Shown: piece by piece, positions 1,026-9,661 of the stretch
Layout of the letters: each line of letters begins with the position of its first letter
Position numbering within the stretch: the stretch's first letter is position 1
Assembly: GCA_027604185.1 (NCBI GenBank)
Contig: JADGKB010000209.1
Span: forward strand, 1 to 11,382
Origin: Boothiomyces macroporosus
Taxonomy: Eukaryota; Chytridiomycota; Chytridiomycetes; Rhizophydiales; Terramycetaceae
Direction of reading: 5' to 3'
DNA length: 11,382 bases
Notes under the pieces: model-generated
The model's database searches: none
Seen by the model: only the letters and a program-made list of their open reading frames with translations
Told to the model about the DNA's origin: nothing
Made by a program: the position numbers and the translations under genes

Positions 1026-1689
1026 TTAGGTAAAGATGTCAGGAGCCATGGAAATATTTCCTCCCATGTCTTTTTCGATCAAAAAGATTTGTTGTGGTAC
1101 ACTTGCTTGAATAAATAATCTTCCGCCTGGTTTGAGCTGATGAAGCAACTATAATTAATTATCAATTACTTCCTTTGGAACTTCAGTGTGGTAAATGTTC
1201 ACATGTATAGCATCAAATGGAGCTCCCGAAGCATACCCAACTTCGTCATCTACGTGTAATAATTGAAGCTGATGGTCAAGAAGTGTAGGGTCTTCTCGAC
1301 TTACATTTTCTTTGGCAAGTTTAACAATCTCAGGAACACTGTCAACTCCAATAACTTTTCCTGATCTTCCCACCATCTGGGCAAGGCAGGCGGACAGGTA
1401 TCCAGACCCAGTCCCAATATCCAACACTTTTGCCCCTTCTTGGCAATTTGGTGCCAAATACTCTAAAGCCTTTGCGTGTAGTCTTGGAGCAGAGATGGAC
1501 TTGTTGTATCCGATATACTGTGGAGTGTCAACATAAGCATCAGATTTGTTTGAGCAGTAATTTGCTCGGTCGACCAACTTCATTGTATGTGCTACTCTGT
1601 CGCTTCTGAGCAACCCAGATTCTATATTAGCAAATCTTACTTTGCAAGTTAGTAATCAAGTTTGTATTAGATATTCCAGATAGTGTCAT
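1026..1689 (-). CDS. Protein-L-isoaspartate O-methyltransferase (PCMT), three exons
   Basis: The enzyme transfers a methyl group from S-adenosylmethionine to isoaspartyl residues, starting repair of aged proteins in the cytosol. Exons on the minus strand are 1689-1641, 1621-1170 and 1148-1026, giving 207 aa; introns are 19 and 21 nt. Splicing rebuilds the family N-terminus (NTNLITNLQKSGLLRSDRVA, residues 8-27). Residues 46-66 carry the family D-T-P-Q and S-I-S-A-P-x-L-H-A signatures. Motif I of the Rossmann methyltransferase fold is VLDIGTGSGYL (82-92), and QLKPGGRLF (171-179) is also typical. The start is the ATG at 1689, in frame through the first intron. Two points are unusual: the GDGRxGY hallmark reads HVDDEVGY (139-146), and the C-terminus stops about 15-20 residues earlier than in animal PCMT. 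A CATAAATA element lies about 20-30 nt upstream of the ATG. Budding yeast lacks this gene; fission yeast has it. Confidence 0.92.
1149..1169 (-). other. Intron, 21 nt, PCMT intron 2 (phase 0)
   Basis: It starts GTAATTG, has TTAAT near the end and finishes ATAG. Removal joins HTEVPKE to LLHQLKPGGR, the expected PCMT order. Retention keeps frame but meets TAA at the fifth codon. Confidence 0.88.
1622..1640 (-). other. Intron, 19 nt, PCMT intron 1 (phase 1)
   Basis: On the minus strand it starts GTAAGA, contains CTAAT as a likely branch site, and ends TAG. Removing it joins exon 1 (16 codons plus 1 nt) to KSGLLRSDR in frame. Retaining it gives TAA within the intron. Confidence 0.88.
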
Positions 1690-1725
1690 TGTTTAATTCA
1701 AACCGTCCGCTTATTTATGCAGAGA
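1690..1725 (-). promoter_or_regulatory. TATA-like core promoter of PCMT
   Basis: Reading the minus strand, GCATAAATAAG lies about 20-30 nt before the PCMT start codon. The gap to the upstream gene's stop codon is 136 bp. No CCAAT box was seen in that gap. Confidence 0.35.
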
Positions 1726-1825
1726 GGAGATGTGATTCATAATTACATTTCGCACAGAAGCTCCCCCATCGGATTGTCCCCAAACATTCCTAAGCTTTCT
1801 ACAGTGGGTAATAATACTATCTTTA

Positions 1826-2444
1826 TTATTCTTCCATTTTTTCTTCAATTACGACCATTTGCTTTATACTCTTTCCGTTCATTTCTTGATATAAATCTTG
1901 CAGTAGTCCTATTGCTAGGCCCGAACCGGTTCCGGCAAGTATTACTGTTTTAGCACTTGTTAGCCACAGCTTATCTATATTAATATTGCTTACTAACTGC
2001 TGCAAATAGCAGTGATGTACCAAACGCTGAAACAGTCGTATTCGCAAACGTATATCCATCATTCAAGTTATACTCTTTTCTAAGTAAATCTATCCCGTAT
2101 TCCCCTGTGCAATAAACTGCAGTCCAACCAGCTGCTGACAGCCCATACATCACCCCATGAGGAAATGAACTTTTTATAATTTCAAAATTCTTTTGTTTCC
2201 TGTATTCAAACCACCCACCTTTAGTAGTTGGCATACGGTGAGAATTCTCTGCGAGAAACTGCCTCGACCTCCTGACTCCTCTTCGAATTCCTGCAAGCAA
2301 ACCAGCGACATAAAACGTGGAAGTGGTTAATTTAAGTGCCCATAGGGTCTCTGGAGAAGTGATTTTCGACAGTTCATAGGCAGACTTTCGGTCGAATGCA
2401 GCTGCCTTTAGAAACAGTTTCACTTTTTGCAAATCTTGTTGCAT
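1826..2444 (-). CDS. Tim17/Tim22/Tim23-family membrane protein, TIMMDC1-like, two exons
   Basis: Exons 2444-1994 and 1974-1826, separated by a 19-nt intron, encode 199 aa. Four hydrophobic segments can be seen: about 37-53, 95-112, 133-150 and 158-175. The third and fourth are small-residue rich, as in the Tim17/22/23/Pmp24 family (V-I-L-A-G-T-G-S-G-L-A-I-G in the last). The layout matches animal TIMMDC1, an inner-membrane assembly factor for respiratory complex I: a charged loop with R/K after segment 1, a G-W-x-T-A-V motif in segment 2, then a charged loop, and a short K/E-rich tail. I infer that identity from layout and short motifs only; another Tim17-family member is possible. The first ATG (2444) is used because the next Met is at residue 71, past segment 1. 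The start codon is 14 bp from that of the divergent TAF7 gene. Confidence 0.8.
1975..1993 (-). other. Intron, 19 nt, in the Tim17-family gene (phase 1)
   Basis: It starts GTAAGC, carries TTAAT and ends ATAG. Removal converts the premature end after FAAV into FAAVNKLWLTSAK and adds the fourth membrane segment and tail. Retention meets TAA inside the intron. Confidence 0.88.
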
Positions 2445-2458
2445 TGGATCAAAAAAAT
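2445..2458. promoter_or_regulatory. 14-bp divergent start-codon spacer (Tim17-family gene / TAF7)
   Basis: Only 14 bp (tggatc plus an A-rich run) separate the two ATGs. Any core promoter and 5' UTR for either gene must overlap the coding region of the other, or initiation must be almost leaderless. No TATA box fits in the spacer. Confidence 0.7.
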
Positions 2459-3523
2459 ATGGTCTCTATAAAAATCAAGCAGCCAGTTCCAGCACCAACT
2501 GAACCGGCAAAGGAAGCGCCAAAGCTAAAGATAAAAAATCTAAACAAGGACATGGATGAAGCTCTGACGGAAGCACCCATTGAAGAGCATTTTGTAATTC
2601 GTTTCCCACCAGGTCTAGCGAACGCTCTGCGAGACCCTATTCGGAATCGCAATGTGCCAGTTGATTTGGAAATAAAGCAGGATGCAAGGAGCGGAAAGTT
2701 GACTTTTAAAAACAAGACGTACAACACTACACTGGTGGATTTACCATGTATAACGGAATCATTGAAAACGATTGACAACAAGCAATTCTACAAGATTGCA
2801 GATGTATCGCAGATGCTTATTGTTCATGAAGGACGATATAGTGGGCCAAAAGATTATGCTTGGCCAGATGGATTAACGACACCATTGAAAGATGTCCGCA
2901 ATAGACGATTCAGAAAAAGAATGTCTAAAAAAGTGATTGAAGATGTGGAGGCGGAAGTAGAAAGATTGCTCACTGCAGATTTGGAAGCTGAAGACGTTCG
3001 ATATGGTAATCTGGAGTTTATCGTTAGAGGTGCACGAACGAAAAGAGCAGGACGAGGATGAAGATGAAGAACTTTCAGGACAGGTATTCTAATTCTTATA
3101 GTAGATGGGTGAATCGGATGGTGAGGATGATGATCTTGATTTGGCAGCTGCTATCGATGAGGCACTTGATAAGGATGAAGTAGAAGCAAACGCACAAGAT
3201 GCCCCTGATGAATCTGAAGAAGAAGAAGAAGAAAGCGGCGAAGAAAGTGAAGAGCCAGAAGAAGAACAAGATGTCGATGAAAATAACGAGTTGAAGAATC
3301 AAATGAACACTCTCAAACACGAAATTCAAGCATTAGAAGCGAAATTGGCTGAAAAGAATCAACTAGCTCAAAATCAAGTGAATGAAATTATGAAAGTAAG
3401 TTGAATTAACTGTAGGAACGTTTCAAAGGCATTGTAAATAAACTATCCATGGAATTGGTACTAAAGAGAGAGCAATTGGAAAAGCTGGAGGTAGAAATCA
3501 GAAACGAGGAAGAAGATCAATAA
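2459..3523 (+). CDS. TAF7: TFIID subunit TAF7, four exons
   Basis: TAF7 is the TFIID subunit that binds TAF1 and regulates its activity at RNA polymerase II promoters. Exons 2459-3005, 3028-3083, 3105-3395 and 3416-3523 give 333 aa, close to the usual size (human 349). The conserved TAFII55 N-terminal domain runs from about residue 42 to 190: EEHFVIRFPP (42-51), DLPCITESLKT (94-104), FYKIADVSQML (110-120) and NRRFRKRMSKK (148-158). Splicing the first 22-nt intron restores VRYEVHE, the expected continuation after the E-V-E-R-L-L-T-A-D helix. An acidic stretch follows (about 191-265), then a coiled coil interrupted by ERFKGIVNKLSMELVLKREQ, matching the R-F-K segment of TAF7 C-termini. The start at 2459 is chosen because the frame continues upstream without family similarity. 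AATAAA overlaps the stop codon (3519-3524). Confidence 0.95.
3006..3027 (+). other. Intron, 22 nt, TAF7 intron 1 (phase 1)
   Basis: It starts GTAATC and ends GTTAG, with no clear CTRAY branch site (TTTAT is the nearest). Removal shifts frame and restores Y-E-V-H-E-R-K-E. Retention has no stop inside the intron but runs into TGA at 3059. Confidence 0.85.
3084..3104 (+). other. Intron, 21 nt, TAF7 intron 2 (phase 0), tandem acceptor
   Basis: It starts GTATTC, contains CTAAT and ends in ATAGTAG, which offers two AGs (3101 and 3104). Only use of the second keeps the reading frame open; the first would put TAG immediately after the exon. Retention gives TAA at the third codon. Confidence 0.87.
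3396..3415 (+). other. Intron, 20 nt, TAF7 intron 3 (phase 0)
   Basis: It starts GTAAGT (perfect U1 match), has TTAAC and ends TGTAG. Removal links EIMK to ERFKGIVNK and the terminal coiled coil. Retention meets TGA at the third codon. Confidence 0.9.
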
Positions 3524-3751
3524 ATATGTGTAGCGTATTCATGCGGTTCAACTTTGATTCGCTTTGCCTTCAAGCGAGAGAGTCAAAATTATTAACACTT
3601 GTGTTACAATCCAGTTTCACTTTGTCCTCATGATTGGCTGAGGTGAAGTAGTGAATCTTTGGGATTCCGCAGTGGCCAATCAAATTGTGGCAAAGGCCCG
3701 CACTCCAAATAGTATAAATTACTGAAAAAAGAAGGGAACGAAAAATCTCAT
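3524..3751 (+). promoter_or_regulatory. Upstream region of AGMO-like gene 1, with CCAAT/TATA module
   Basis: The 228-bp gap holds ATTCCGC (3664-3670), four bases, GCCAATCAAATT (3675-3686), then TATAAAT (3713-3719), with the ATG 33 nt beyond the TATA box. An inverted CCAAT (ATTGG, about 3632) lies further up. The same ordered module, with the same four-base spacing, precedes the second gene. A TAACAC-TT-GTGTTA inverted repeat occurs at 3593-3606. Confidence 0.6.
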
Positions 3752-5167
3752 ATGCCAGCATATTCAACACTTGCCTCAGCGGCTGAAAAGGCGCTACGTA
3801 TGTTTTACATTGTAGATCCAGCCAAGACCACTTTTCTGGATTTAGAGAGTGTCCCAGATTATATCAGCGAAGCAGTTCCATTCTTCATCGCAACCATCAC
3901 TATTGAAGGCATATACTACATTATTGCAGACAGAAAGGGACTCGAAGAACATAAAGGTGACTGGAATAAGGGAAAATTGCGTCTGAATGACACGGTTACC
4001 AGTATCGCCTCTGGATCTATTCAACAGCTATTTAGATTCTTTATCAAAGGAGTTGAAATTACTAGTTATGTCTATGTATGGGAAAACTTTAGACTGTATC
4101 CTTTGGACGCAACAAGCTTGACTACCTGGTTTGCTGCTTTCCTTGCTGCCGACTGTGCTTATTATTGGTTCCATAGACTGGCACACGAAGTAAACATTAT
4201 GTGGGCTGGACATGTTGTTCATCACTCTTCTGAATACTACAACCAGTCTACGGCTCTTCGTCAGTCTTTCTTCCAACCTTTCACTTCCTGGATGTTCTAC
4301 TTGCCTGCCGCTTTGTTTATTCCACCACCAATGTTTGCTGTTCACAAGCAATTGACTACCATCTACCAATACTGGATCCACACTGAAACAATTCCACGTT
4401 TAGGATGGTTGGAATACATCATCAATACTCCATCTGCCCACAGAGTGCATCACGGCAGAAATCCATATTGTATCGACAAGAACTATGCTGGTACTTTAAT
4501 TATCTGGGATCGCATGTTTGGTACCTACCAAGATGAGTTGGTGTATCCACAAGTTGTAGACTCCAAGGACAAAGAGGAAAAGGTTGCCTATGGGTTAACC
4601 CACCCAATCAATACCTTTAATCCCATCACTGTCCAAATTCATCATTTGAAGCATGTGTTCACTACTGCTTACAATACTCCTGGATTTGTCAACAAGCTTA
4701 AAGTATTCTTTTATGGACCAGGATGGCATGAAGGCACTCAAAGATTGGGTGATCCAGAAGAAATCCCAAAGATTGATCAAAAAAGCCCTCCAGCCAAATT
4801 TGATCCACCAATGACCTCAAGCACAGCTTGGTATACTGCTTTGCACTCTGTTGCTCTAGTTGGGTTTGTAGACTTTGCATTAATGAACGCAAAAGTATTC
4901 CCTAATAGATACTCTCAAGCTTTGGCCGGATGGATTTTCTTTGGCTTCTACTCTGTTAGCAAAATGATGGAAAACAAAAAGTCTGCAACTTCCATTGAAC
5001 TACTTAGAATGGTTACTGGCCTGGGCTTGTCTGCCCTAGTTGCTAAGAACCAGGTATACAATTTCAGCCCAAGCCTCATAAATGGATTACGCGTATTTTA
5101 TGGTGCAAGTGGTATTTACATGGGATATAAATTGGCCAAATCATTTGGTAAACAAAAAAGAGAATAA
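3752..5167 (+). CDS. AGMO-like membrane fatty acid hydroxylase superfamily protein, copy 1
   Basis: This is an integral membrane di-iron oxygenase of the fatty acid hydroxylase superfamily, closest in motif and length to alkylglycerol monooxygenase (AGMO), which cleaves ether bonds of alkylglycerols using O2 and tetrahydrobiopterin, probably in the ER. It has 471 aa and no introns (human AGMO 445 aa). Metal-ligand histidine boxes are visible: HRLAH (141-145), HVVHH (154-158) and HRVHH (230-234), plus WIHTE at 208-212. Hydrophobic segments lie at about 41-58, 95-112, 124-140, 176-192 and three to four more between 360 and 460. Compared with copy 2 it has about 35 extra N-terminal residues. The ATG at 3752 is preceded by a TATA box at a suitable distance. 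Substrate is inferred from family only; a sterol or sphingolipid-type hydroxylase is less likely given the AGMO-like length and His spacing. Confidence 0.9.
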   Translation: MPAYSTLASAAEKALRMFYIVDPAKTTFLDLESVPDYISEAVPFFIATITIEGIYYIIADRKGLEEHKGDWNKGKLRLNDTVTSIASGSIQQLFRFFIKGVEITSYVYVWENFRLYPLDATSLTTWFAAFLAADCAYYWFHRLAHEVNIMWAGHVVHHSSEYYNQSTALRQSFFQPFTSWMFYLPAALFIPPPMFAVHKQLTTIYQYWIHTETIPRLGWLEYIINTPSAHRVHHGRNPYCIDKNYAGTLIIWDRMFGTYQDELVYPQVVDSKDKEEKVAYGLTHPINTFNPITVQIHHLKHVFTTAYNTPGFVNKLKVFFYGPGWHEGTQRLGDPEEIPKIDQKSPPAKFDPPMTSSTAWYTALHSVALVGFVDFALMNAKVFPNRYSQALAGWIFFGFYSVSKMMENKKSATSIELLRMVTGLGLSALVAKNQVYNFSPSLINGLRVFYGASGIYMGYKLAKSFGKQKRE

Positions 5168-5168
5168 A
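5163..5168 (+). terminator. AATAAA overlapping the stop codon of AGMO-like gene 1
   Basis: The last sense codon, TAA stop and next base together form AATAAA. The same arrangement occurs at TAF7 (3519-3524) and AGMO-like gene 2 (6680-6685), and on the minus strand at the Tim17-family gene (1822-1827). Confidence 0.35.
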
Positions 5169-5370
5169 TTTCGTTTTCAATTATTATTTGATTTCTTGAA
5201 CGGGCCGTTGTGAGGTCAGACGATGAATTTCTAAAGCCTTTTGTCCAGATTAGTACTTTGCTCCAGTGCATTGTTTAGCCTAAACATTTAGTATTCCGCT
5301 CGCGCCAATCAAATTAAACTTTAGCACATGATCTAAACTATAAATCAAGGAGTGATAAACGGTGAGTGCC
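5168..5370 (+). promoter_or_regulatory. Promoter of AGMO-like gene 2, with CCAAT/TATA module
   Basis: ATTCCGC (5293-5299), four bases, GCCAATCAAATT (5304-5315), TATAAAT (5339-5345) and the ATG at 5371 repeat the order seen before copy 1. CCAAT-to-TATA gaps are 23 and 26 nt in the two copies. The rest of the gap does not obviously align. A TGTTTAG-C-CTAAACA inverted repeat lies at 5272-5286. Confidence 0.6.
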
Positions 5371-6684
5371 ATGTACGACGTCACCGACCATACTGCGACA
5401 GCTGCACCATTTCTGTTGATGACTATAGGCCTTGAAGGCTTATATTATTACTTCAAGGACAAGGATGGTCTTAAATCGCAAAAAGGAAACTGGAATCAAG
5501 GAAAGTTCCGAACGAATGATATCCTCGCCAGTATCAGCCAGGGATCAATCCAGCAGCTCTTGAAGATTTTTGCGGGTGCATTTGAAATCTCGATCTACAT
5601 TTATCTCTGGGAAAATTGGCGTATATATCCATTGCAGTCGAACTTGGCAACTTGGTTCTTTACGTTCATTGCAACCGACTTTTGCTATTATTGGTTCCAT
5701 CGCATGGCTCATGAAGTCAATATCATGTGGGCTGGCCACGTAATCCACCATTCATCAGAGTATTACAATCTATCTACTGCTTTGAGACACTCTGTGTTCC
5801 AAGAGCTGTGTTCTTGGATATTTTACATGCCAATGGCCTTTATGATTCCTCCGCCAATGTTTGCATTCCATAAACAGTTGAACCTGTTTACTCAGTTTTG
5901 GATCCACACTGAAACAATTCCACGTTTAGGATGGCTAGAATACATCATCAATACTCCTTCCGCCCACAGAGTGCATCACGGCAGAAATCCATATTGTATT
6001 GACAAAAATTATGCAGGAGCTCTGATTATCTGGGATAGAATGTTTGGAACCTATCAAGATGAATTGGTATATCCTCAAGTGGTTGATTCAAAAGATAAAG
6101 AAGAAAAGGTTGCCTACGGAATTACGCATCCAATCAACACATTCAACCCATTAGTGATTCAAACTCATCATCTTCGCCATGTACTGACTACTGCTTTCTC
6201 AGTCAAAGGGATCGCCAATAAATTCAAAGCAGTATTTTTTGGTCCTGGTTGGCACGAGGGAACAGCACGATTAGGTGATCCAGAAGAGATACCAAAAATT
6301 GAACAAAGTAGCCCGCCAGTCAAATATGACCCAATCATTCCATTCACCATGAATCTTTACTGTGTAATTCAAACGGCTGCTACTGCTGGTATTGCTGATT
6401 ATGTTTTGTTACGGCTCAGCTCTCTTCCTGGAGTATTTTTAAAATTAGCTGCCGTTTGGATATTCTTTGCGTATTACTCTTTGGGATCAATTATGGACCG
6501 CAAACCTTACTTTCGTGAGTTGGAGCTGTTCAGACTTTTTGCGGGAGTAGTCCTTTGCAACTACGTTTCTAGCCACTCTGATCTTTATCAGATTTCTCGA
6601 TTTATTCCGTGGTCACTCAATATTCTTTATCTCGTTAGCATTTTGTTTCTTATTTGGACATATATTTCACAGAAATCTAAATAA
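5371..6684 (+). CDS. AGMO-like membrane fatty acid hydroxylase superfamily protein, copy 2
   Basis: A 437-aa intronless paralogue of the preceding gene, in the same orientation. Histidine boxes are conserved: HRMAH (110-114), HVIHH (123-127), WIHTE (178-182) and HRVHH (199-203). The region around the third box, PRLGWLEYIINTPSAHRVHHGRNPYCIDKNYAG, is identical to copy 1, and identity stays high to about residue 300. The C-terminal membrane region (from about 320) and the N-terminus have diverged. The frame extends 9 nt upstream to a GTG at 5362, but the ATG at 5371 is 26 nt past the TATA box and is the better start. Divergence is spread over both ends with intact catalytic residues, so both copies look functional; different substrate preference is possible but not shown. 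Confidence 0.9.
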   Translation: MYDVTDHTATAAPFLLMTIGLEGLYYYFKDKDGLKSQKGNWNQGKFRTNDILASISQGSIQQLLKIFAGAFEISIYIYLWENWRIYPLQSNLATWFFTFIATDFCYYWFHRMAHEVNIMWAGHVIHHSSEYYNLSTALRHSVFQELCSWIFYMPMAFMIPPPMFAFHKQLNLFTQFWIHTETIPRLGWLEYIINTPSAHRVHHGRNPYCIDKNYAGALIIWDRMFGTYQDELVYPQVVDSKDKEEKVAYGITHPINTFNPLVIQTHHLRHVLTTAFSVKGIANKFKAVFFGPGWHEGTARLGDPEEIPKIEQSSPPVKYDPIIPFTMNLYCVIQTAATAGIADYVLLRLSSLPGVFLKLAAVWIFFAYYSLGSIMDRKPYFRELELFRLFAGVVLCNYVSSHSDLYQISRFIPWSLNILYLVSILFLIWTYISQKSK

Positions 6685-6805
6685 ATCAGTTGAAACCTCG
6701 CCAATTTAGTATGAAAATCACTTTATCACAAGTATCTTTGACTATTTCTATTGCCTTGAACCAAACACAAAATCAGTGTTATGCACCGGCTCATAGTTGA
6801 TAAAC
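6685..6805. other. 121-bp convergent intergenic gap
   Basis: This separates the stop codons of AGMO-like gene 2 (+) and the SLF2-like candidate (-). AATAAA overlaps the plus-strand stop codon (6680-6685). Nothing else is recognised here. Confidence 0.5.
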
Positions 6806-9661
6806 TCATGGATTTATTATTAATCTAACTACAGTTTCCAATCTGAGCAATTCGTCTTTGACAAGTGATCTGTCCAAATACATACCCATTCTATCATCTA
6901 TCTTATTGTGAAAAACCCTAAATGCCTTTGCTACTACTTTTGCCGAAGTCTAAGATCAGAAATGGATAACCTTTTGCTCTAATATCCTGGGTTTCGAAAG
7001 CAATATTCCAAAAATCAGTAGTGCATCATAGGTTTCTTCATAGCTTGGTGTGTCTTTGGAAAAAAGTTTCAGTTGGTTAAGTGATTCAAATGCGGTTTCA
7101 AGAGAGATATCATCTTGTACATCCAGAGCAATTCTGTCCCAGCTTAGCAATATACACAAAGAAAACTGCTCAGCTACATTTATCAACCTTGGACACGAAT
7201 AGTCAAACAAAAATGACTTCAACAGCTTGTAGAGATTTAGTTTAAATACGCTATTTTCGGACAAAAATCCATTAATCATATTCCTTATCCATTGGTTCCT
7301 CACGTCAATCCATTCCAGTCTTTCGATATTATTGATTAAAGCTGATATAGATTTAACTGCAGATATTTGATACACTTCCATACGATCATCCAACAGCATT
7401 AATGAAAGTATATCTAATAAATGAACATTGTCAACGGTTGTGAAGCTTTGTTTTTGAAAAATGAGACACAGCAGTTCAAGGACATAGGAAGTGATAATAA
7501 ATGAGGCTTCAGTTGCTAATTTACGGTCAGCGTGCTCTTCCACTGTTTTAGTGTAACCCTCTAATTTGAAATCTTTTGAAAAAATCCCTGGAGAAACACC
7601 CGCAATCAGAAACAGTTGTATAAGATCGTCATACACAAATTTCATATTAGGGTGACCTGCAACATTTTTCAGCTCTGTGACTATATAAATCGATTGATTG
7701 GAAAGTAATATCCTTGCCAAATTTGGGAAAAAATTGGATGGTGGCAACCATTCATGACTTAGCCAATAGCTAAACAACTCTGCTCCAAAAAACTCCAAGA
7801 TGTTTTCAGAGGTAATATCATCCAATTTTTCAACCCCTTTCCACACTTCAAAGTCAATTTTGAAAGCTAAAGGTGGTGAAATTACATTAATGTGCTGAAT
7901 AAAGTGATTTCTAGTACCTTCTTCAATAATTTTGTGATCAATGTTGAACTTGCTGGATATTTTCTCTAAACTGTGTTTGTTTGAGCTTATTGGCGAAGAC
8001 GTTATCATAGTTTCAAGCTCGGCATACTTTGTAGTTTTCTGCTTAAAGTTCGAAGCCTTTTTCAAAAGTTTTTGCAAATCATCTAAATCATCCAATGATG
8101 AATCTCTTTTAAATTCGAATTTAGGAGTGTTTCTGGTGGATCTAAGTCCTCTTCGGCTATTTGGCGGTTCTCGAATAGAGTCAGACATCTTTGGCCGCTT
8201 AGGTGTATCGTTTCCAGGTTCATTTGATTCTCTTTTCATTTTTTGTCCGAAATTGGGCAACACACCTAGATCATCTTTTGCTGAAATAGAGTCCTCTAGA
8301 ATTTCTGAATCAACCAATATCGAAACTTCTGTAAATTGCTTTTCATTTAATTTTGCATTTGAATCCTCCACTTTCTTATCCAGCAAATAATCAGACAAAA
8401 AGTCTTCGTCATCCGAAATACTTCCAATAACCGGAGCAGCTACTGGATCCATATCAAATTCAGGGAAATCAAATGCAGGATTAGAGAAAATATCCAGATT
8501 ATTCGGACTGGCGCTTTTGATTGGGCTTTTCACAGCTATCTCTAGTCTTTCTTCTGAATTTCCATCAGTAGTGGACTTGACAGGACTGGTCTCTCTTTTA
8601 GCAACATGAGAAAGAATTTGGCTAATCTTGATTGGACTAATAGACTTGGTTGGGCTGATACTTTTTGTTGGACTGATAATCTTTGTTGAGCTGGTAACAT
8701 TTGTAGGGATGGATGGGCCAGTTTCCTTGCCCGGATTGATGGTTTGTACCGGGCTTTCTGAATTTTCTCTCTTTGGTGAGTTTTTAGGGGAAAGGTTCTT
8801 TATCTGTATTTCTTTTTTCACAGCAAAGTCAACTTCCACAATTTCAACATTTTTCTGGTTCTCCTTAACTATTTCAACAACAGTAGTATTCTCCTGAATT
8901 ATTATGGACGATTCTCCAAGGACAGTGGTATTGTTACTAGTCGCGGTAGGAACAACAGGGGTATTATCATTCTGGTGACCTTTTTGTTTCAATCTACGCG
9001 CAAGCTTGCTTGGAGTTGGGGGAATACTTTCCTCCTCGGGAGATGGCATTCTTCGGATAGTTCCTTGCGATGATTTGTGCAGAATTGGACCCAATTTTCG
9101 AACTTTCATAGGCTTACTATTAGCGTGACTTTCATCTGGTATTGTAATAATATTCCTTTGACCAGAGACTTTGGACCGCTGTTTTTCTGGTGATTCTTTA
9201 GGAATTAATGAAACAAATTCTGGTGATTTTTTGTCTGGATTTTTTTGTGATTCATTCAAATCTGGTGGGGTATATTTCTGTAACAATCTACTATTGTTTG
9301 CGGTACTATCTGGTTTCTGGCACTTTGATTTGCGCTCTGATAATGGGATTTTTGACAATTTAGAGCTGTCGGCCTTTTTCACCTTTGAAATTACCTACAG
9401 TCAGGGAATTTGTACTTGCACACAATCATCATCTTCTATTACAACAACATCCTGCTTTGGATCCTTTACAAATTTGGAGCTGGTTTTCTTGGATGTTGGT
9501 GTATTTGGTCTTTTTTCAATTCTAGTTATTTTCGGGGTCTTCACCCCTACAACCTGGATATTATTTTCCTTGAAATCGACCTTTTCCGTTTTACTATTGT
9601 CTGGCAATACTGGTGTAGACTCTCTAGGAGTCTTTTTGAAGAAGTCTGTAATTTTTTTCAT
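6806..9661 (-). CDS. Candidate SLF2/Nse6-like (CANIN-type) genome-stability protein, three exons
   Basis: Exons 9661-9416, 9394-6971 and 6949-6806, with two 21-nt introns, encode 937 aa. The N-terminus reads MKKITDFFKK, a PCNA-interacting (PIP) box shape with Met in place of the usual Gln. Residues 71-79 (DVVVIEDDD) fit a SUMO-interaction motif with acidic flank. Residues 83-540 are disordered, with at least nine S/T-P-x-K/R CDK consensus sites, including a tandem ISPTKS repeat at 322-338, and NLS-like basic runs near 467-484. From about 513, an SLDDLDDLQKLLKK segment leads into a mostly helical globular region running to the end, closing with RVFHNKIDDRMGMYLDRSLVKDELLRL. That closing pattern and the overall layout resemble the CANIN domain of SLF2/Nse6-type Smc5/6 adaptors. 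This is recognition by eye from weak similarity; a different PCNA- and SUMO-binding nuclear protein is possible. The ATG at 9661 is chosen because it places the PIP-like motif at the N-terminus. Confidence 0.6.
6950..6970 (-). other. Intron, 21 nt, SLF2-like gene intron 2 (phase 0)
   Basis: It starts GTTATC (a weak donor), contains CTGAT and ends CTTAG. Removal joins SKPRILEQK to TSAKVVAKAFRVF and a 47-residue charged helical tail. Retention meets TGA at the fifth codon. Confidence 0.75.
8627..8680 (-). repeat. Imperfect 18-bp tandem repeat coding ISPTKS
   Basis: About three units of 18 bp encode IISPTK-SISPTK-SISPIK within the disordered region of the SLF2-like protein. Each unit is a full CDK consensus (S-P-x-K). 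Base differences between units show it is not a recent expansion. Confidence 0.7.
9395..9415 (-). other. Intron, 21 nt, SLF2-like gene intron 1 (phase 0)
   Basis: It starts GTACAA, contains CTGAC and ends TGTAG. Removal joins DDDCVQ to VISKVKKADSS. Retention meets TGA at the fifth codon, which would cut the protein to 86 residues. Confidence 0.82.

Follow-up and report, generated by a model that had tools for sequence, protein, structure and literature searches.

The stretch of DNA analyzed here (the window) is one whole contig (C209, 1–11382) of the chytrid fungus Boothiomyces macroporosus (Chytridiomycota, Rhizophydiales, Terramycetaceae), whose genome comprises 15.2 Mb in 216 contigs. We found that eight segments of only 19–22 nucleotides (nt), which interrupt four genes of the window, are almost certainly spliceosomal introns of the U2 type and belong to an ultrashort class that extends over the genome, the length of which would be set by two short spacings on either side of the branch adenosine. 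Both the excision of these segments in the cell and the role of a motif adenosine as the branch point are what we infer from sequence features.

Putative introns of 19–22 nt in four genes of the window

The eight segments had been proposed as introns in a sequence-only reading of the window. We confirmed the positions of all of them, each running from GT to TAG, and found that their excision gave a continuous frame in each of the four genes. Five start with GTAA and one each with GTAT, GTAC and GTTA, in agreement with the proposal that six start with GTA followed by A or T. The gene for protein-L-isoaspartate O-methyltransferase (PCMT, PF01135; 1026–1689, minus strand, with ends read by hand from the sequence) has three exons separated by introns of 19 nt (intron 1, 1622–1640; putative branch A at nt 14, followed by 5 nt) and 21 nt (intron 2, 1149–1169; A at nt 15, followed by 6 nt). 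Its longest unspliced frame scored 152.6 bits against PF01135 (profile positions 16–161), whereas the joined protein scored 192.1 bits (positions 3–194) and aligned with human PIMT (1i1n) without gaps around both junctions. Restoration of the family sequence by joining, as had been suggested for this gene, was thus borne out.

The same suggestion held in part for the four-exon gene of TFIID subunit 7 (TAF7; 2459–3523, plus strand). The junction of intron 1 (3006–3027, 22 nt; weak motif TTTAT, A at nt 15, 7 nt after) was free of gaps in alignments with yeast and human TAF7, and that of intron 3 (3396–3415, 20 nt; A at nt 14, 6 nt after) in the alignment with human TAF7. In contrast, intron 2 (3084–3104, 21 nt; motif CTTAT, A at nt 15, 6 nt after) lies in an acidic low-complexity stretch adjoining alignment gaps and cannot be judged by homology; an alternative AG 3 bases upstream would come just 3 nt after the A, and its use would retain an in-frame stop codon. 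Alignments with PDB entries (4rgw, 30ff and 4oy2) therefore tested two of the three TAF7 introns. Pfam provided no test, because all three are located downstream of the PF04658 domain (joined protein 153.8 bits, unspliced frame 159.5 bits).

In the remaining two genes, introns were recognized by frame continuity and motif only. A Tim17/Tim22/Tim23-like gene (1826–2444, minus strand) has two exons and an intron of 19 nt (1975–1993; A at nt 14, 5 nt after); its protein scored 25.2 bits against PF02466, under the cut-off of 32.7, and joining added little (24.0 to 25.2 bits). A long minus-strand gene (6806–9661; 937 amino acids when joined) contains two introns of 21 nt, located at 9395–9415 and 6950–6970, the latter starting with GTT; in both, 6 nt follow an A at nt 15. 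The earlier label "SLF2-like" for this gene could not be confirmed, as no credible Pfam match was found (the best one, E 0.028, was to an unrelated family). When all eight introns were compared, the A was at nt 14 or 15 and was followed by 5, 6 or (once) 7 nt. The branch element that had been noted in most of these introns was present as YTRAY in six, whereas introns 1 and 2 of TAF7 require the looser motif YTNAY, which all eight contain.

Length peak in a genome sample

We then analyzed a genome sample of 20 stretches of 10 kb each (contigs C1–C20) together with the window, i.e., 211 kb or ~1.4% of the genome. Introns were called by an ab initio dynamic-programming decoder, which in the first run had a coding model only, required GT and AG ends and used a flat length distribution of 10–300 nt. 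This run gave 19 well-supported joins of 19–23 nt, compared with 3–6 for seven control dinucleotide pairs, and 14 of the 19 had YTRAY with A at nt 14–16, no motif having been requested. In the second run, which used site models learned from the first-run joins and a flat length of 12–300 nt, 166 of 382 joins were of 19–22 nt, with the remainder scattered over all lengths. As a control, splice-site scores were shuffled among GT and AG positions, with 10 permutations for each of two settings (one intron penalty and one stricter). There were 68 joins of 19–22 nt under the first penalty and 58 under the stricter one, compared with permuted means of 9.7 and 6.3, respectively. None of the bins from 23 to 300 nt was above its permuted maximum, and most were under the permuted mean. 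Overall, the sample gave a single length peak, at 19–22 nt, with no second class at greater lengths up to 300 nt.

When intron length was restricted to 16–30 nt, the decoder produced 95 gene models with 227 introns, 206 of which were 19–22 nt long (46 of 19 nt, 86 of 20 nt, 57 of 21 nt and 17 of 22 nt). Their 3' ends were TAG (149), CAG (35) or AAG (22), GT and AG being imposed by the decoder. By extrapolation, this density (206 per 211 kb) corresponds to roughly 15,000 introns genome-wide. In addition, the pattern of GTA plus YTRAY with A at nt 14–16 and 5–7 nt after it occurred 191 times on the two strands of the sample, compared with a mean of 20.6 (13–28) in 10 dinucleotide shuffles, and 134 of these occurrences were introns of the decoder gene models. 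A flat run with a higher penalty yielded 12 GT..AG joins of 18–24 nt and, on average, 2.2 for 41 control pairs. The bias related to introns of 3n length and stop codons, which is known from Paramecium, was not used as evidence because the decoder itself disfavors 3n introns without stops.

These data also bear on assembly or sequencing errors. Any frame break could arise by an insertion or deletion, and such indels might mimic introns in individual genes. However, the same make-up and spacing recurred across the sampled contigs, and indels would not share GTA..YTRAY..TAG, which makes this explanation extremely improbable.

Two motif scans of the whole genome with free gaps, reaching lengths of about 84 nt, showed a peak in the same range. 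GTAAG..CTAAY..TAG had 639 matches and GTAAT..TTAAY..TAG had 2,207. Among the matches listed, 56 of 100 for the former (first 100 of 639, contigs C1–C7; 5 were repeats in duplicated segments) and 55 of 100 for the latter (first 100 of 2,207, C1–C2; 1 repeat) were of 19–22 nt, lengths that make up 3–4% of gap combinations. Again among the matches listed, the number of matches per gap combination was 2.8 (GTAAG) and 2.1 (GTAAT) at the peak and 0.05–0.14 beyond it. The scan totals prove nothing because control patterns read backwards gave more matches than the real ones (1,394 versus 639, and 2,223 versus 2,207); it is the length peak that serves as evidence.

The listed matches also contained repeats with a constant offset. 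On contig C2, the same intron strings occurred in the same order at ~269–305 kb and 312–348 kb (offset ~42.6 kb), and on C3 at ~193–203 kb and 215–225 kb (offset ~21.6 kb), which suggests that large segments are duplicated in tandem or that duplications arose in the assembly.

Homology across junctions

Joined models were also compared with known proteins, using genes that were picked as recognizable and were not a random sample. The models matched PKA catalytic subunit (five introns), MCM7 (five), RAE1 (four), the large subunit of U2AF (U2AF2; four) and Isy1. Together with PCMT and TAF7, 18 of 24 junctions in seven genes were gap-free for at least 5 residues on each side, as counted by eye in printed alignments (PKA 4 of 4, MCM7 4 of 4, RAE1 2 of 4, U2AF2 2 of 2, PCMT 2 of 2, TAF7 2 of 3 and Isy1 2 of 5). 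Thus, the idea of the sequence-only reading that introns of 19–22 nt form a genome-wide fixed size class was supported by 20 other contigs, two motif scans, the permutation control and homology in seven genes.

Several observations weigh against this interpretation. Joins made by the decoder itself served to train the site models, and permuted controls still yielded 6–10 joins at 19–22 nt. At the stricter setting, the 16–18 nt bin was above its permuted maximum (1 versus 0) and the 201–300 nt bin was equal to it (12 versus 12). In the higher-penalty run, control pairs TA..GA and GA..TG gave 9 and 5 joins of 18–24 nt, respectively. We considered that the TA..GA joins might be introns of the class read with a shift of one base, but this was true for just 2 of the 9; 2 more overlapped GT..AG joins and 5 were unexplained chance joins. 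Besides, 49 of the 206 modelled introns had no YTRAY, 6 of the 24 junctions adjoined gaps or were in poorly aligned sequence, and a search for U5 small nuclear RNA (snRNA) gave no match, with its controls matching nowhere either.

Another reading of the same data is a mixed genome, in which the 19–22 nt class is real and a substantial set of ordinary introns (40–300 nt) was missed. In its favor, decoder power is weak where exons code poorly, and from 35 nt up the decoder still made 6–19 joins per bin. The 12 joins of the 201–300 nt bin at the stricter setting, besides equaling the control maximum, compare with a control mean of 8.3, and the public gene model P0021 implies an intron of 258 nt. 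However, as described above, bins of at least 23 nt did not rise above permuted maxima and were mostly below permuted means, and the listed scan matches past the peak were thin and even. Moreover, the seven homology-checked genes required no longer intron within their aligned parts, and the P0021 intron is very likely false, since excising it would delete residues that are encoded by an open frame and conserved in the paralogous protein. We consider a mixed genome unlikely.

Two short spacings account for intron length

Within the ultrashort class, YTRAY was found in 157 of the 206 modelled introns, and in 150 of them its A was at nt 14 (77), 15 (58) or 16 (15). In modelled introns with YTRAY, this A was followed by 5 nt in 76 cases and by 6 nt in 67, a spacing that the decoder model had learned. 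In the motif scans the spacing was free; among the matches listed, the A of the 19–22 nt matches was at nt 14–16 in 47 of 51 (GTAAG) and 53 of 54 (GTAAT) distinct strings, and the number of nt after it was 5 or 6 in 48 and 50 of these strings, respectively. Therefore, each length can be written as a sum of two parts: 19 is 14+5, 20 is 14+6 or 15+5, 21 is 15+6 or 16+5, and 22 is 16+6. The lower limit at 19 nt is sharp because both spacings have minima. This two-part spacing, which accounts for the size range, is an addition to what the sequence-only reading had proposed.

The 5' splice-site element occupies nt 1–6 and the branch element approximately nt 11–15, with ~4 bases in between. Only 2–4 bases separate the branch motif and AG, and no polypyrimidine tract fits 3' of the branch point. 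The frequency of T at positions −12 to −10 was 0.40–0.48, compared with 0.31 sample-wide; part of this excess may come from the branch motif of the longer introns.

Minor (U12-type) introns likewise have their branch site near the 3' end, and their consensus is RTATCCTT at the donor and TTCCTTAAC at the branch site. However, the commonest donors of the 206 introns were GTAAT, GTAAA, GTAAG and GTATT rather than RTATCCTT, and their branch motif was a degenerate YTRAY and not TTCCTTAAC. Judged by donors and branch motifs, there is hardly any chance that the segments are U12-type introns.

For U2-type introns of this class, the arrangement would be as follows. The distance from the 5' G to the branch adenosine would be 14–16 nt, with the 3' AG ending 5–6 nt later, giving a total of 19–22 nt. 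Recognition would presumably occur across the intron (intron definition). U1 and U2 could hardly both bind fully, and a hand-over appears likely, in which U1 would leave before U2 and U6 fully occupy the intron. U2AF2 contact, if any, would be upstream of the branch point because of the 2–4 nt between the branch motif and AG.

Splicing machinery

Genes for U1, U2 (two copies) and U6 snRNAs matched Rfam models end to end and had canonical recognition sequences, i.e., AUACUUACCUG at the 5' end of U1, GUAGUA in U2 and ACAGAGA in U6. U1 scored 68.8 bits, 0.7 below the cut-off of 69.5; it covered model positions 1–166 in 163 nt and was not shrunken. The two U2 genes (L024 and L025) were full-length and diverged, with scores of 142.2 and 135.4 bits, respectively.

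With regard to proteins, SF1 and CWC25 reached their family cut-offs, as did Isy1, exon by exon. The U2AF large subunit reached 230.7 bits unspliced (cut-off 310.3), and its joined protein matched human U2AF65 with E 1.3e-61. Models of these genes themselves had short introns: 19–20 nt in U2AF2, 24, 22 and 21 nt in SF1, and 21 nt plus a doubtful one of 17 nt in CWC25. The 24-nt intron of SF1 was also considered doubtful, as were several of the seven introns (17–26 nt) of Isy1, including those of 17 and 26 nt. The first 14 residues of CWC25 were identical to human CWC25, and the Gly2–Gly4 plug was kept. For Isy1, the Pfam profile match began at position 4 and PDB alignments began at query residue 33 at the earliest, the first-exon model being tentative. 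Overall, the spliceosome looks unreduced in the parts examined. CWC25 was present in two loci of 3,111 bp with identical sequence (L036, C49:2042–5152, and L037, C100:3637–6747), which therefore represent either a recent duplication or uncollapsed haplotypes in the assembly.

These snRNA sequences also help to evaluate skipping of the segments by other means, such as HAC1-like endonuclease splicing, translational bypass or DNA elimination. Such a short segment does strain classic joint binding of U1 and U2, a point which speaks for these routes. However, GT/AG ends, a branch-like motif at a fixed spacing and canonical recognition sequences of U1, U2 and U6 all point to the spliceosome, and non-spliceosomal skipping is very improbable.

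Comparison with known ultrashort introns

It is probable that the entire intron set of this chytrid is one fixed-size class (14–16 plus 5–6 nt), processed by an unreduced spliceosome in a fungus that is not genome-reduced and is not known to be a parasite. If this is true, extreme intron shrinkage would be possible with an unreduced genome, a U1 of full length and an intact CWC25 plug. Introns so short also challenge the classic view of U1 and U2 positioned side by side on the intron.

In Stentor coeruleus, introns of 15–16 nt are described, with GT-AG ends, A at nt 10 in the 15-nt introns and all snRNAs present (PMC9505925). The chytrid introns are similar in the near-fixed branch position and in having 5 nt after the A. 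In contrast, the donor-to-branch arm is 14–16 nt in the chytrid and 10–11 nt in Stentor, YTRAY is visible in the chytrid whereas Stentor is described as lacking a strong consensus, and the chytrid CWC25 retains the Gly2–Gly4 plug whereas the Stentor protein is reported to be without it (PMC9505925). The intact plug in the chytrid argues against plug loss as a general requirement for tiny introns. The nucleomorph of Bigelowiella natans, a remnant genome of 373 kb, is reported to have 865 introns of 18–21 nt (PMC6461891), a nearly equal size range, and its U1, U2 and U6 have canonical recognition sequences as well. Its introns are described as lacking obvious donor and branch motifs, and its U1 and U5 as shrunken (PMC6461891), whereas the chytrid genome is 15.2 Mb, its introns have clear motifs and its U1 and U2 are of full length. 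Mikrocytids have introns of 16–17 nt, 224 of them in M. mackini (PMC10245619); their narrow size range and conserved sequence resemble those of the chytrid, but, according to this report, they are parasites with reduced genomes and spliceosomes (PMC10245619). In Paramecium and Nyctotherus, introns are ~25 nt and ultrashort ones only are described (PMC5014332). These are ciliates with introns several bases longer than in the chytrid, and the shared feature would be the exclusive use of ultrashort introns. The sequence-only reading was right in naming Paramecium, Stentor and the Bigelowiella nucleomorph as parallels and had left out the mikrocytids.

With regard to Fungi, short introns dominate in Cryptococcus neoformans, where "ultrashort" is used for introns of <60 nt, with an average of 56 nt (PMC11913375). 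Introns of <40 nt are described there as a small and poorly spliced group (PMC11913375), unlike the chytrid class. Fungal intron densities and mean lengths are given in PMC8476143, and no such class is named alongside these values. We found no published fungal case of such tiny introns in the searched open-licence literature, and our claim of novelty is a weak one; surveys that drop introns of <30 nt cannot detect the class (PMC10639083). This kind of intron is already known, and what might be new is the fungal host, which shows no sign of spliceosome reduction in the parts examined, together with the spacing and a branch motif this clear. Cases found in print came from ciliates, nucleomorphs and parasites, and the chytrid would be an independent case in Fungi. 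This kingdom has good splicing genetics, and the visible branch motif leads to a numeric rule (14–16 plus 5–6) that is open to mutational testing.

Other genes in the window

Gene models built under ordinary intron-length limits will be wrong in this genome, and P0021 (HK103_002938, 351 amino acids) looks like an example. It is encoded by the second alkylglycerol-monooxygenase-like gene of the window (model at 5371–6684, plus strand) and is without the stretch encoded at ~5380–5637, as if an intron of 258 nt had been called in an uninterrupted frame. The gap is likely an annotation error that resulted from ordinary assumptions about intron length. This gene is part of an adjacent tandem pair with uninterrupted frames (3752–5167 and 5362–6684, plus strand), and the protein of the first member had 93% identity to a Terramyces protein. 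A gene for a bZIP transcription factor (PF07716) was also found in an uninterrupted frame at 153–956 on the plus strand.

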